From positions 9,052,001 to 9,116,000 of the forward strand of contig NZ_CP108394.1 in assembly GCF_041435215.1 (NCBI RefSeq): a stretch of DNA of 64,000 nt, read 5' to 3'. This document shows positions 45,482-62,557 of this stretch, one piece after another. Source of the DNA: Streptomyces sp. NBC_01314 (lineage in GTDB: Bacteria > Actinomycetota > Actinomycetes > Streptomycetales > Streptomycetaceae). A program made the position numbers and the translations under genes. The notes under the pieces are model-generated. The model did no database searches. It was not told the origin of the DNA and saw only the letters and a list, made by a program, of their open reading frames with translations. Within the stretch, counting starts at the first letter, position 1, and the number at the start of each line of letters is the position of its first letter.

Positions 45482-45686
45482 GCCGCGACCCTATTACGGC
45501 CCAAAACCCCGCCGCGCCCGGCCCCGGGCCTTGAAACCCGGGGGCCACGCATCGTGGCCTTGGCCACAACGGCAGGTGCCCGCATGGTGGACGTCACCTC
45601 GCGCACCTGCGGATATGCCTCTCAGGGCCGTCCGCTATACGGACAGGCCTCTCACACCTGCTTCATACATCTGCTTTACTGATCTC
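45482..45686. other. Gap with hairpins before the met leader
   Basis: Contains an imperfect GGCCCCGGG / CCCGGGGGCC hairpin (about 45520-45546), GTGGCC/GGCCAC, a GTCCG-CTATA-CGGAC inverted repeat (about 45630-45645) and a direct repeat GCCTCTCA (45617 and 45648). TTTACT (45675-45680) lies six bases before the leader-peptide ATG. Confidence 0.5.
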
Positions 45687-45773
45687 ATGACCACGACGAG
45701 CTACCGCACCCTTGCGACCGAGGCGACGATGACGCCCGGTGCTCGTTGTATGTGTCGAATGTGCGCCTTCTAG
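45687..45773 (+). CDS. Cys/Met-rich leader peptide upstream of metNIQ
   Basis: 28 codons ending in GARCMCRMCAF before TAG: three Cys and two Met in the last eight codons, after an unremarkable MTTTSYRTLATEATMTP. There is no Shine-Dalgarno; TTTACT at -12 to -7 would fit a leaderless transcript starting at the ATG. Cys-rich upstream ORFs act as ribosome-stalling attenuators of sulfur genes in other actinobacteria; the Cys-Met-Cys-Arg-Met-Cys end here fits sensing of both sulfur amino acids. It lies 156 bases before the preferred metN start. Function is inferred. Confidence 0.7.
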   Translation: MTTTSYRTLATEATMTPGARCMCRMCAF

Positions 45774-45929
45774 AAGGCCCCGTACGCCGTTCCGCGTGAC
45801 GGACCGAGCCTCCCGCGCATGTTCTCCCCCGGTTCCCTCGCCACCGCGAGAACCGTGTCGCGTCCCTGACAGCCTGCACCCGTGCCCGGGCACACCCACG
45901 CCCGCGTACTCGACAGTGACGGAAATCCA

Positions 45930-46973
45930 GTGATCACCACATCGGGCCTGACCAAGGTCTACCGAGGTCGCGGCCGCGAGACGACCGCTCTCGACGGCGT
46001 CGATCTGCATGTACGCGAGGGCGAGGTGTACGGCGTGATCGGCCAGTCCGGCGCCGGCAAGTCCTCGCTGATCCGCTGCGTCAACCTCCTCGAACGCCCC
46101 ACCTCCGGAACCGTGACCGTCGCGGGCCAGGACCTGACCGCCCTGGCCGGCCGCGGCCCCCGCGCCGGCCGGGAACTCCGCCGGGCGCGCAGCCGTATCG
46201 GCATGGTCTTCCAGCACTTCAACCTGCTGTCCTCCCGCACCGTCCAGGACAACGTCGAGCTGCCCCTCGAAATCCTCGGCAGGTCCGGCAGGGACCGCTC
46301 CCGCAGGGCCCTGGAACTGCTCGACCTCGTCGGCCTCGCCGACAAGGCGAAGGCCTACCCGGCCCAGCTCTCCGGCGGCCAGAAGCAGCGCGTCGGCATC
46401 GCCCGCGCGCTGGCCGGCGACCCGAAGGTGCTCCTCTCCGACGAGGCCACCAGCGCCCTCGACCCGGAGACCACCCGCTCGATCCTGACGCTGCTGCGCG
46501 ACCTGAACCGGCAACTGGGCCTGACCGTCCTGCTCATCACGCACGAGATGGACGTCGTCAAGACGATCTGCGACTCGGCCGCCCTCATGGAGAAGGGCCG
46601 GATCGTCGAGTCCGGCACGGTCAGCGAACTGCTCGCCACCCCCGGCTCCGAACTGGCCTCCGCCCTCTTCCCGGTGGGCGGCGAGGCCACCGGCGACGAC
46701 CGGACGGTCCTCGACGTCACCTTCCAGGGCGAGACGGCGACCCGGCCGGTCATCTCGCAGCTCTCCCGTACGTACAACATCGACATCTCGATCCTCGGCG
46801 CCGCCATCGACACCGTCGGCGGCCTCCAGATCGGCCGGATGCGCATCGAGCTCCCCGGCCGCTACGAGGACAACGTCGTCCCCGTCGGATTCCTGCGCGA
46901 GCAGGGCCTGCAGATCGACGTGGTCGGCCGGGACATCCAGGCGTCCACGCTCGCGAAGGAAGGTGCCAAGTGA
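45930..46973 (+). CDS. metN: Methionine import ATP-binding protein
   Basis: 347 residues from GTG 45930 (ITTSGLTKVY); a GTG at 45882 would add 16 residues. ABC ATPase: Walker A GQSGAGKSS, Q-loop MVFQHFNL, signature LSGGQKQRVGIARAL, Walker B VLLSDEATSALDP, H-loop LLITHEMDVV. A C-terminal NIL (ACT-like) domain (about 265-345; ISQLSRTYNIDISILGA) binds methionine and trans-inhibits transport. Powers MetI/MetQ uptake of methionine. Overlaps metI by four bases; preceded by the Cys/Met-rich leader. Confidence 0.95.
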   Translation: MITTSGLTKVYRGRGRETTALDGVDLHVREGEVYGVIGQSGAGKSSLIRCVNLLERPTSGTVTVAGQDLTALAGRGPRAGRELRRARSRIGMVFQHFNLLSSRTVQDNVELPLEILGRSGRDRSRRALELLDLVGLADKAKAYPAQLSGGQKQRVGIARALAGDPKVLLSDEATSALDPETTRSILTLLRDLNRQLGLTVLLITHEMDVVKTICDSAALMEKGRIVESGTVSELLATPGSELASALFPVGGEATGDDRTVLDVTFQGETATRPVISQLSRTYNIDISILGAAIDTVGGLQIGRMRIELPGRYEDNVVPVGFLREQGLQIDVVGRDIQASTLAKEGAK

Positions 46974-47701
46974 CCTGGACCGAGATGTGGCCCCTGCTGG
47001 AGCAGGCGTGTTGGGACACGCTCTACATGGTCGGCTGGTCCACCCTCATCGCGATCGTCGGCGGTCTCCCGCTCGGCATCCTGCTCGTTCTCACGGACCG
47101 GGGCGGCCTGCTGCAGAACGTCCTCGCCAACAAGGTCATCGGGCAGATCGTGAACATCGCCCGCTCGATGCCCTTCATCATCCTGATGGTCGCGCTGATG
47201 GGCTTCACCCGCTGGGTCACCGGCTCGACGATCGGCCGCGAGGCCGCCATCGTGCCGCTCGCCATCGGCGCGATCCCGTTCTTCGCGCGCCTCGTCGAGA
47301 CGGCCGTCCGCGAAGTGGACCACGGGCTCGTCGAGGCCGTTCAGGCCATGGGCGGCAACACCTGGACCGTCGTCCGCAGGGTCCTCGTCCCCGAGTCGCT
47401 GCCCTCGCTGATCTCCTCCGCCACCACGACCGTCGTCGCCCTCATCGGCTACTCGGCCATGGCCGGCACCGTCGGCGCGGGAGGCCTCGGCGACATCGCC
47501 ATCCGGTACGGCTACCAGCGCTTCGAGACCGAACTGATGTGGATCACCGTGGCGGTCCTCGCGGTCGTCATCTCCGTCATCCAGTTCGCCGGTGACCACG
47601 CCGCCCGCGCCCTCCACCGGCGCGGCAGCCACACGGGCGCCGCACCGAGGCTTCGGCTGCTGAAGACCGAGCCCACCGCACCGACGGCCACCAAGGTCTA
47701 G
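46970..47701 (+). CDS. metI: Methionine ABC transporter permease
   Basis: 243 residues from GTG 46970. Five membrane spans; the permease coupling loop EAVQAMGGNTWTVVRRVLVP (EAA motif) interacts with MetN, and MAGTVGAGGLGDIAIRYGYQ is a MetI hallmark. C-terminal Arg/Thr-rich tail in the cytosol. Four-base overlap with metN; metQ follows after 78 bases containing a CCCGTC/GACGGG hairpin (47729-47748). Confidence 0.95.
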   Translation: MTWTEMWPLLEQACWDTLYMVGWSTLIAIVGGLPLGILLVLTDRGGLLQNVLANKVIGQIVNIARSMPFIILMVALMGFTRWVTGSTIGREAAIVPLAIGAIPFFARLVETAVREVDHGLVEAVQAMGGNTWTVVRRVLVPESLPSLISSATTTVVALIGYSAMAGTVGAGGLGDIAIRYGYQRFETELMWITVAVLAVVISVIQFAGDHAARALHRRGSHTGAAPRLRLLKTEPTAPTATKV

Positions 47702-47779: not shown

Positions 47780-48613
47780 GTGCGTAACACCACCAAACTG
47801 GCAACCGCCGTACTTACCGTCGGAGCCCTCACCCTCGGACTCACCGCCTGCGGCGCGGACAAGGCCGACAACGCCTCCGACACGAGCGGTCCGCTGGTCG
47901 TCGCCGCCAGCCCCACCCCGCACGCCGACATCCTCAACTTCGTGAAGGCCAACCTGGCCAAGGACGCGGGCCTGGAGCTGGAGGTCAAGGAGTTCAGCGA
48001 CTACGTCCTGCAGAACCCGGCCACGGAGGACGGGTCCGTCGACGCCAACTACTTCCAGAACCAGCCGTACCTCGACGACTACAACAAGAAGAACGGCACC
48101 GACATCGTGCCCGTCGTCACGGTCCACCTGGAACCCCTCGGCCTGTACTCGAACAAGGTCGAGAGCGTCGGCGCCCTCAAGAGCGGTGCGAGCGTCGCCA
48201 TCCCGAACGACACCGTCAACGAGGCGCGTGCCCTGCGGCTGCTCGACGCGAGCGGGATCATCACGCTCAAGGACGGCGTCGGCATCGACGCGACCCCCGC
48301 CGACATCACCGAGAACCCGAAGAAGCTCCAGTTCAAGGAGTTGGAGGCGGCCCAGACCCCGCGCTCCCTGGACGACGTCGACGCCGCGGTGATCAACGGC
48401 AACTACGCTCTCGAAGCCGATCTCTCGCCCGCCGACGACGCCCTCGCCGTCGAGCCCGCCAAGGACAACCCGAACGGCAACTTCCTCGCCGTCAAGAAGG
48501 GCAACGAGGACGACCCGCGCGTCGAGAAGCTCGCCAGGCTCCTCACCTCCGACGAGGTCAGGAAGTTCATCGAGGACAAGTGGAGCAACGGCTCCGTCAT
48601 CCCTTCCTTCTGA
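47780..48613 (+). CDS. metQ: Methionine-binding lipoprotein
   Basis: 277 residues from GTG 47780 with AAAGGAAAGG upstream. Lipoprotein signal with lipobox LTAC (Cys24), then a NlpA/MetQ fold: VVAASPTPHADILNFV, VKEFSDYVLQNPA, VDANYFQNQPYLDDY, IPNDTVNEARALRLL and AAVINGNYALEADL. Captures methionine at the outer face of the membrane for MetNI. Last gene of metNIQ. Confidence 0.95.
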   Translation: MRNTTKLATAVLTVGALTLGLTACGADKADNASDTSGPLVVAASPTPHADILNFVKANLAKDAGLELEVKEFSDYVLQNPATEDGSVDANYFQNQPYLDDYNKKNGTDIVPVVTVHLEPLGLYSNKVESVGALKSGASVAIPNDTVNEARALRLLDASGIITLKDGVGIDATPADITENPKKLQFKELEAAQTPRSLDDVDAAVINGNYALEADLSPADDALAVEPAKDNPNGNFLAVKKGNEDDPRVEKLARLLTSDEVRKFIEDKWSNGSVIPSF

Positions 48614-62078: not shown

Positions 62079-62150
62079 TGGACGATACTGGGATTGAACC
62101 AGTGACCTCTTCCGTGTCAGGGAAGCGCTCTCCCGCTGAGCTAATCGTCC
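62079..62150 (-). tRNA. tRNA-Val (GAC)
   Basis: 72 nt, full cloverleaf: acceptor GGACGAT/ATCGTCC, D arm AGCTCAGCGGGAGAGC, anticodon arm CTTCC-CTGACAC-GGAAG, T arm ACTGG-TTCAATC-CCAGT, A73. CCA is not encoded. Last tRNA of the minus-strand cluster. Confidence 0.96.
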
Positions 62151-62184
62151 TCGGGATCACAGCACCACGGCTGTGGATCTTGCG

Positions 62185-62256
62185 TGCGCGATACTGGGAT
62201 TGAACCAGTGACCTCTTCCGTGTCAGGGAAGCGCTCTCCCGCTGAGCTAATCGCGC
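62185..62256 (-). tRNA. tRNA-Val (GAC), variant acceptor
   Basis: 72 nt, same as its neighbours except the acceptor stem: GCGCGAT/ATCGCGC instead of GGACGAT/ATCGTCC. Both strands of the stem changed together, so pairing is kept. A73 present, CCA not encoded. Confidence 0.96.
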
Positions 62257-62297
62257 GGGTCGAAGCCTCGCGGGCTCCAGAAGCCCTGAGGCCTCAG

Positions 62298-62369
62298 TGG
62301 ACGATACTGGGATTGAACCAGTGACCTCTTCCGTGTCAGGGAAGCGCTCTCCCGCTGAGCTAATCGTCC
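62298..62369 (-). tRNA. tRNA-Val (GAC)
   Basis: 72 nt, identical to the copy at 62079-62150. Anticodon loop CTGACAC. CCA not encoded. Confidence 0.96.
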
Positions 62370-62373
62370 TTGG

Positions 62374-62444
62374 AGGTGGAGACGGGATTTGAACCCGTGT
62401 AGACGGCTTTGCAGGCCGTTGCCTCGCCTCTCGGCCACTCCACC
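62374..62444 (-). tRNA. tRNA-Cys (GCA)
   Basis: 71 nt; acceptor GGTGGAG/CTCCACC with U73 (a tRNA-Cys identity base), anticodon loop CTGCAAA, T arm ACGGG-TTCAAAT-CCCGT. Only four bases separate it from the following tRNA-Val. CCA not encoded. Confidence 0.96.
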
Positions 62445-62484
62445 AGGAGTGCGGGGATTCGGGAAGATCCCCCGCTTTCCAGCG

Positions 62485-62557
62485 AGCGGACGACCAGGTT
62501 CGAACTGGCGACCTCAACCTTGGCAAGGTTGCGCTCTACCAACTGAGCTACGTCCGC
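62485..62557 (-). tRNA. tRNA-Gly (GCC)
   Basis: 73 nt; acceptor GCGGACG/CGTCCGC, anticodon loop TTGCCAA, T arm GCCAG-TTCGAAC-CTGGT, U73. First tRNA of the cluster, behind the promoter at 62600. Confidence 0.97.

Follow-up and report, generated by a model that had tools for sequence, protein, structure and literature searches.

The window, the whole stretch of 64,000 nt that was analyzed, is a segment of a Streptomyces chromosome (9052001-9116000), and its close relatives also belong to Streptomyces. It carries the methionine-uptake operon metNIQ, preceded by a short leader ORF that we refer to as metL. The main features are as follows.

45672-45680, plus strand: extended -10 element, TGC-TTTACT, 6 nt 5' of the ATG, with a geometry for leaderless transcription.
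45687-45773, plus strand: leader ORF metL, MTTTSYRTLATEATMTPGARCMCRMCAF, 28 codons, with an ATG start and a TAG stop.
45747-45764, plus strand: putative control-codon stretch TGT ATG TGT CGA ATG TGC (Cys-Met-Cys-Arg-Met-Cys).
45756-45761, plus strand: CGA-ATG, a nearly invariant codon pair (in 183 of 186 leaders, the last Met is preceded by CGA).
45930-46973, plus strand: metN, GTG start, ABC_tran and NIL domains (Pfam).
46970-47701, plus strand: metI, BPD_transp_1 (Pfam).
47780-48613, plus strand: metQ, Lipoprotein_9 (Pfam).

The metL peptide terminates in Arg-Cys-Met-Cys-Arg-Met-Cys-Ala-Phe, with three Cys and two Met in codons 21-28, and its stop is separated from the metN start by a gap of 156 nt. 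NCBIfam and Pfam searches with the leader peptides returned no match. The earlier note on this DNA had described a 28-codon ORF with a Cys/Met-rich end upstream of a methionine operon, and this observation was confirmed at 45687-45773; its interpretation as a sulfur amino acid sensor was partly supported. The comparisons described below support the view that metL is a real, translated-looking leader ORF dedicated to metNIQ, with the promoter geometry expected of a leaderless transcript.

The leader is very widely conserved in Streptomyces. The 401-nt region at 45560-45960 matched 142 of the 150 Streptomyces genomes sampled (source genome counted), and the best match spanned the promoter, the ORF and its stop in most of the matching genomes. 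Six of the eight genomes with no leader match also had no MetN at E<=1e-60. MetN was present in the remaining two (G050 and G008), both fragmented assemblies in which no leader was seen: MetN is located at base 6 of a contig in G050, so that the leader would fall off the contig, and its alignment begins only at residue 43 in G008. The motif CGAATG[TC]G was absent from both of these metN loci. A covariance model built on the first 66 nt matched 96 of 101 genomes strongly (E<=1e-10), at a single place per genome except in G002, in which two contigs were matched; among the matches listed, the next-best places were at 6.8e-6 and weaker. The element co-occurs with metN.

We gathered 147 metN loci, 30 from the leader-region search, 17 (of 80) and 100 from further searches, and a leader was found by alignment at 146 of them; the exception, an Actinomadura locus (L047), has the leader MTAARSCLAHRSLTQRAGRMCCRRMCDR. 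A MetN search of 61 genomes of the family was positive in 50 at E<=1e-120. Forty further non-Streptomyces loci of the family (20 + 20) yielded 39 leaders, identified via the promoter hexamer ahead of the ATG and all with Arg-Met close to the stop, and no leader was obtained at the one other locus (L265). The total set comprised 186 leaders with 146 distinct ORF sequences, some genomes being represented twice (e.g. L044 and L276). Among 197 genomes of the class, 33 were MetN-positive at E<=1e-90, including 16 of Streptomyces, and 14 loci were read from the 17 non-Streptomyces genomes. Two of these loci, outside the family (L336 and L337), have clear Arg-Met-Cys-rich ORFs upstream of metN, a few others have weaker Cys- or Met-containing ORFs, and no such ORF was seen at the rest of the 14. 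Five other actinobacterial loci (L049, L087, L098, L100 and L103) had no leader, and other distant actinobacterial loci were screened solely for C-x-C-x-x-C endings. A strict DNA pattern for the leader ending was found in 0 of 394 genomes of the class; this pattern also misses Streptomyces leaders and says little. In another genus (L346 and L348), a different Cys-containing short ORF (..RRCVPLPGGRCR..) was read by eye upstream of metN.

The promoter hexamer TTTACT lies at 45675-45680 with TGC directly 5' of it. Among the 186 leaders, the hexamer was TTTACT in 168, TTTAAT in 9, TTAACT in 5 and another sequence in 4, with TGN directly 5' in 181 and a spacing to the ATG of 6-8 nt in all; 40 of these leaders had been picked by a hexamer at most 13 nt from the ATG, and only the spacing is informative for them. 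The -10-like element that the earlier note had considered to be placed for a leaderless transcript was found again in relatives at a preserved spacing. A leaderless transcription start was reported for metL of S. lividans TK24, the ortholog, in the part of PMC8079986 that describes it. This disagrees with a start downstream of 45773, the outcome against which the earlier note had set its claim, for the ortholog only. The arrangement of TTTACT 6-7 nt before an ATG occurs at five places in the genome, metL among them, and the frames at the other four were rejected as sibling leaders because they are not Cys/Met-rich.

The frame and the ending of the ORF are both preserved. In 142 of 143 leaders, the ATG and the last CGAATG share a reading frame (L043-L045 are omitted from this count and the single exception has no hexamer), and they do so at seven distances, which argues that the ORF is very probably translated. 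The distance from the stop to metN takes every value modulo 3. On a metN tree (146 loci, 540 nt, FastTree), parsimony gave 19 changes in ORF length and 16 in the residue that follows the last Arg-Met, counts that tree errors could inflate. All 186 leaders have Arg-Met close to the stop. The last 12 codons contain at least one Cys and at least one Met in every leader (means, 2.9 Cys and 2.0 Met), with Cys ranging from 1 to 5. The Cys/Met enrichment, which the earlier note had judged to be far from chance, is upheld by its presence in all 186 leaders, by the preserved CGAATG frame and by its linkage to metN. The part played by individual Cys codons stood less well. Met and Cys near the stop were found in 186/186, but the last Cys is replaced by Arg in 44. 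metL is not simply a Cys sensor, because the last Arg-Met is followed by Cys in 140 leaders, by Arg in 44 and by His in 2. Around Arg-Met, C, R or H follows and insertions precede; the third Cys of the leader in the window is not conserved, and the first is less often variable. The window has no contiguous Cys run (C-M-C-R-M-C), and runs occur in some relatives, such as RCMCCCRMC in L277. In metN of relatives, 1 Cys codon in 146 is TGT, and CGA is rare, with 49 of 2439 Arg codons. The first two leader Cys are mostly TGT (122/139 and 126/139), and the last is mostly TGC (78 TGC and 21 TGT; n=143).

Constraint on nucleotides is as striking as that on the peptide, and both the peptide and the RNA are conserved. 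Streptomyces leaders hardly vary at synonymous sites: at 4-fold degenerate sites, the mean share of the commonest codon was 0.991 over 10 leader columns (residue kept in at least 85%) versus 0.731 over 7 metN columns (residue kept in at least 95%). The third base of codon 9 is T in 125 of 140 leaders even though the residue varies. RNAalifold, applied to 136 distinct sequences, predicted a three-way junction within the ORF; its elements, which rest on RNAalifold and pair counts, are as follows.

45693-45701, plus strand: 5' arm of P1 of the predicted junction, codons 3-5.
45705-45716, plus strand: P2 hairpin, codons 7-10.
45717-45740, plus strand: P3 hairpin, ACCG-a-GGCG / CGCC-CGGT, codons 11-18.
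45741-45749, plus strand: 3' arm of P1, codons 19-21, overlapping the first Cys codon.

The junction pairs are nearly invariant, with 95% of cells pairing versus 24-44% when the arms were slid. In P2, A-T changes to G-C on both sides in 2 sequences, and P3 has a nearly invariant stem and a loop that varies at codons 14-15. We rejected covariation as proof of the junction. Only 3 double-sided pairs were found in 45 chosen sequences, and letter shuffles reached the observed covariation in 1-8 of 500 trials on four measures and in 258 of 500 on a fifth. The junction is not proven by covariation because arms slid by -2 columns scored as well, with equally many double-sided pairs and more cells. 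Independent support for folding came from a comparison with synonymous resamplings, for which a codon table was assumed: the first 22 codons were more stable in Streptomyces, with a mean z of -2.45 (83% below -1.64; 109 sequences), and far less so in non-Streptomyces, with a mean z of -0.88 (27% below -1.64; 37 sequences).

Two further hairpins, H2 and H3, were found 3' of the leader stop. H2, with the near-invariant loop GCCCCGAA, occurs in 161 of the 186 leaders. Its five inner pairs are formed in 96-100%, and one pair changes from T-A to C-G on both sides in 6. GGGC directly after the stop tracks H2 (both in 155, neither in 20, H2 only in 6 and GGGC only in 5); the tree of 146 loci shows 5 changes of H2 and 8 of GGGC, and the relatives are not independent. 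The window itself (45774-45840) has neither GGGC nor H2, and L113 and others also have no H2. The 14-mer of the H2 core occurs in 0-4 copies per genome in 41 genomes versus 0-3 for a reversed control; we rejected it as a genome-wide element since its copies beyond metL are mostly chance. An H2-like stretch, CCTCGCG..CGAAGC, follows the Arg-Met-Cys-rich ORF in L336 and L337. The sequence between the leader and metN comprises the following.

45774-45929, plus strand: C-rich spacer to metN, 68 C and 41 G in 156 nt, a candidate Rho-loading region.
45882-45909, plus strand: H3 hairpin, GTGC-c-CGGGC / GCCCG-c-GTAC, ending 20 nt before the metN start.
45910-45932, plus strand: conserved metN ribosome-binding region, TCGACAGTGACGGAAATCCAGTG, with TCGACA in 131 of 146 loci.

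H3 covaries strongly. Alternative pairs occur among the 132 loci with TCGAC, for example C-G in 88 and G-C in 37 at one position, and the arms of the same locus pair at -14.97 kcal/mol versus -13.01 (sd 0.15) for arms swapped between species, the swapped arms being worse. The spacers of relatives average 0.445 C and 0.285 G, with C exceeding G in 146/146; the control region upstream of the promoter has 0.368 C and 0.344 G, with C exceeding G in 83/146. A search of 45600-45960 revealed no intrinsic terminator. The spacers are U-poor, an 8-mer with at least five T occurring in just 12 of 146, and neither RNAalifold nor pairing comparisons identified a mutually exclusive antiterminator helix with covariation. 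A C-rich spacer of this type would fit Rho-dependent attenuation.

The spacer also bears on an alternative at the level of translation, in which the metN ribosome-binding region would be base-paired to leader codons 19-27 and released by a stalled ribosome; translation attenuation has been described for Cys genes of M. smegmatis in the available text of PMC13236596. In the window, CTCGTT, TGTCGA and GTGCGC lie opposite GCGTACTCGACA-gt-GACGG, and RNAalifold predicts the TGTCGA/TCGACA part of the pairing. In Streptomyces, leaders paired with their own metN region at -24.0 kcal/mol versus -21.0 for base-shuffled partners; however, species-swapped partners paired equally well (-24.3). In other genera, own pairs (-24.3) were slightly better than swapped partners (-23.5, sd 0.45). 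Pairing of equal strength was obtained with 28.8% of 5770 other segments of the window and, in 50 sampled relatives, with a median of 26% of the segments located downstream. Averaged over 46 sampled leaders, simulated ribosomes near the leader end raised the unpaired fraction of the Shine-Dalgarno zone from 0.37 to 0.44-0.46, but a ribosome at the stop gave the same rise, the metN start codon stayed closed and, in the window itself, the simulated ribosome lowered the opening of this zone. Leader variants such as CGCCGA and CTCCGA have no compensation at metN. We rejected the long-range TGTCGA/TCGACA helix, predicted but uncompensated, and also the anti-Shine-Dalgarno pairing, which beats base shuffles but neither other genomic segments nor swaps within Streptomyces. 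Control by such pairing appears improbable to us. Since the spacer is C-rich with no intrinsic terminator and sequestration of the ribosome-binding site does not exceed background, we favor a Rho-type ribosome-mediated attenuator.

We consider metL to be probably, but by no means certainly, a ribosome-mediated attenuator of the methionine-uptake operon, most likely one that senses the charging of Met- and/or Cys-tRNA, perhaps through Rho. Translation, stalling, the identity of the sensed aminoacyl-tRNA, Rho and the direction of the switch are all steps that we infer. Transcription would begin at the A of the ATG or beside it, allowing a ribosome to load immediately on the leaderless ORF and to trail RNA polymerase through the structured coding region with its three-way junction, up to the Cys, Met and Arg(CGA)-Met codons ahead of the stop. 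When Met-tRNA and/or Cys-tRNA are charged, the ribosome would complete the ORF and depart; the RNA 3' of the stop would then fold or load Rho, and transcription would terminate in the C-rich spacer. When they are uncharged, the ribosome would stall on the control codons, which in the window lie 3 to 8 codons ahead of the stop, and its front edge would mask the stop-proximal RNA, such that termination fails and metNIQ is expressed. The occurrence of the Arg-Met-type ending in Actinomadura as well as in 39 of the 40 further non-Streptomyces loci supports this attenuator. Arg in place of the last Cys in 44 of 186 leaders, and the missing GGGC/H2 module in the window, which would suit a switch, speak against it. 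CGA is decoded slowly. A more elaborate form, with CGA-AUG(-UGY) as a slow step that senses both Met-tRNA and Cys-tRNA and is coupled in most species to GGGC, H2 (possibly a pseudoknot) and H3 for family-wide control of methionine uptake, is an idea that we put forward tentatively and consider doubtful.

The near-frozen synonymous sites are also compatible with an RNA acting on its own. The conserved unit may then be a ligand- or protein-binding, riboswitch-like element in which the junction, GGGC/H2 and H3 sense and the ORF is secondary. The contrast between leader and metN at 4-fold sites, the fixed third base of codon 9, the fold stability of Streptomyces ORFs above synonymous controls and the almost invariant H2 loop are consistent with this explanation; however, the reading frame is kept, Rfam gave no match, and the excess stability is weak beyond Streptomyces, yet the Arg-Met ending persists there. 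We regard such an element as unlikely. The constancy of Arg-Met near the stop, of CGA in 183 leaders and of the short distance to the stop may instead reflect nascent-peptide arrest, with an Arg-Met-Cys/Arg end and a slow CGA halting the ribosome in response to methionine, SAM or another small molecule. Arrest peptides described so far are generally stricter in sequence, whereas the residues flanking Arg-Met vary a lot, and we give this reading little credence. The Cys-rich end in the window may also suggest a functional micropeptide, for example one that binds a metal or responds to redox via C-x-C; however, the variation of Cys from 1 to 5 in the last 12 codons and synonymous sites constrained as much as the peptide make this highly improbable.

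The leader itself is already published as metL in one species. PMC8079986 lists metL of S. lividans TK24 (SLIV_29928) as a candidate methionine-dependent attenuator with "several methionines and threonines" and several unspecified downstream hairpins, and states that there is no typical Rho-independent terminator and that termination is unclear. The S. lividans gene is the ortholog, with the leader MSTTSDRTPATEATTTPGARCMCRRMCAF before metNIQ and a leaderless start. The account of it in the text available names Met and Thr codons rather than Cys, and does not include cross-species conservation, CGA-AUG, a junction within the ORF, H2 or H3. We found no further description of this leader in the titles and abstract openings of the open-access papers that our literature searches listed.

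Related systems differ in several respects. The classical ribosome-mediated attenuator shares with metL a short leader ORF with Met (and Cys) codons, found here in 186/186, but has a U-tract intrinsic terminator, of which none was found at 45600-45960. The E. coli tna leader works by nascent-peptide arrest with free tryptophan; its likeness to metL would lie in the proposed logic, in which a ribosome retained close to the stop blocks Rho. Polycysteine leaderless ORFs of mycobacteria are mentioned in PMC9031893, PMC13236596 and PMC9094748 (original, Canestrari 2020). As described in the available parts of these papers, they are short leaderless ORFs with Cys codons before sulfur genes, similar to metL with its promoter geometry for a leaderless start, and act as elongation-speed sensors. 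However, their Cys are contiguous, whereas in metL Cys alternates with Met/Arg before a Met transporter, and the RNA folds are conserved. Cys leader peptides before cys/cbs operons of other actinobacteria were reported by Seliverstov 2005 (PMC1262725), which suggests Rho-dependent attenuation for them and names the E. coli tna leader. Similar to metL, they have Cys codons near the stop and no conserved terminator. The sections of that paper available to us report no conserved RNA structures before methionine operons, whereas the metL leader has conserved folds.

Searches of Rfam 15 gave no match in the leader, either at the gathering threshold or at E<=5, and the absence of a SAM riboswitch asserted in the earlier note holds for known families. 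The Streptomyces-metH and Streptomyces-metK RNA families had no match in the leader; both occur elsewhere in this genome, and a scripted search found no Cys/Met-rich short ORF at either locus. Oxidative stress raised metN, metI and metQ 5.2-, 3.5- and 2.3-fold, respectively, in wild-type S. coelicolor, and cysteine-synthesis genes rose together with metNIQ (PMC4991794, in the portion available), a co-induction that is compatible with a Cys signal. According to the same source, this induction was lost in an hbpS-senS-senR mutant, a SenR site is predicted before metN, and the operon depends on the SenR redox system; ordinary transcriptional control by SenR may act on metNIQ too.

metL lends itself to a clean test of simultaneous reporting on two amino acids by a single ribosome, and it bears on attenuation in GC-rich actinobacteria with no obvious U-tract terminator. 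Elsewhere in the window, positions 968-1181 match the Streptomyces sRNA Scr1601 in Rfam (176 bits), and five clustered tRNA genes lie on the minus strand at 62079-62557.
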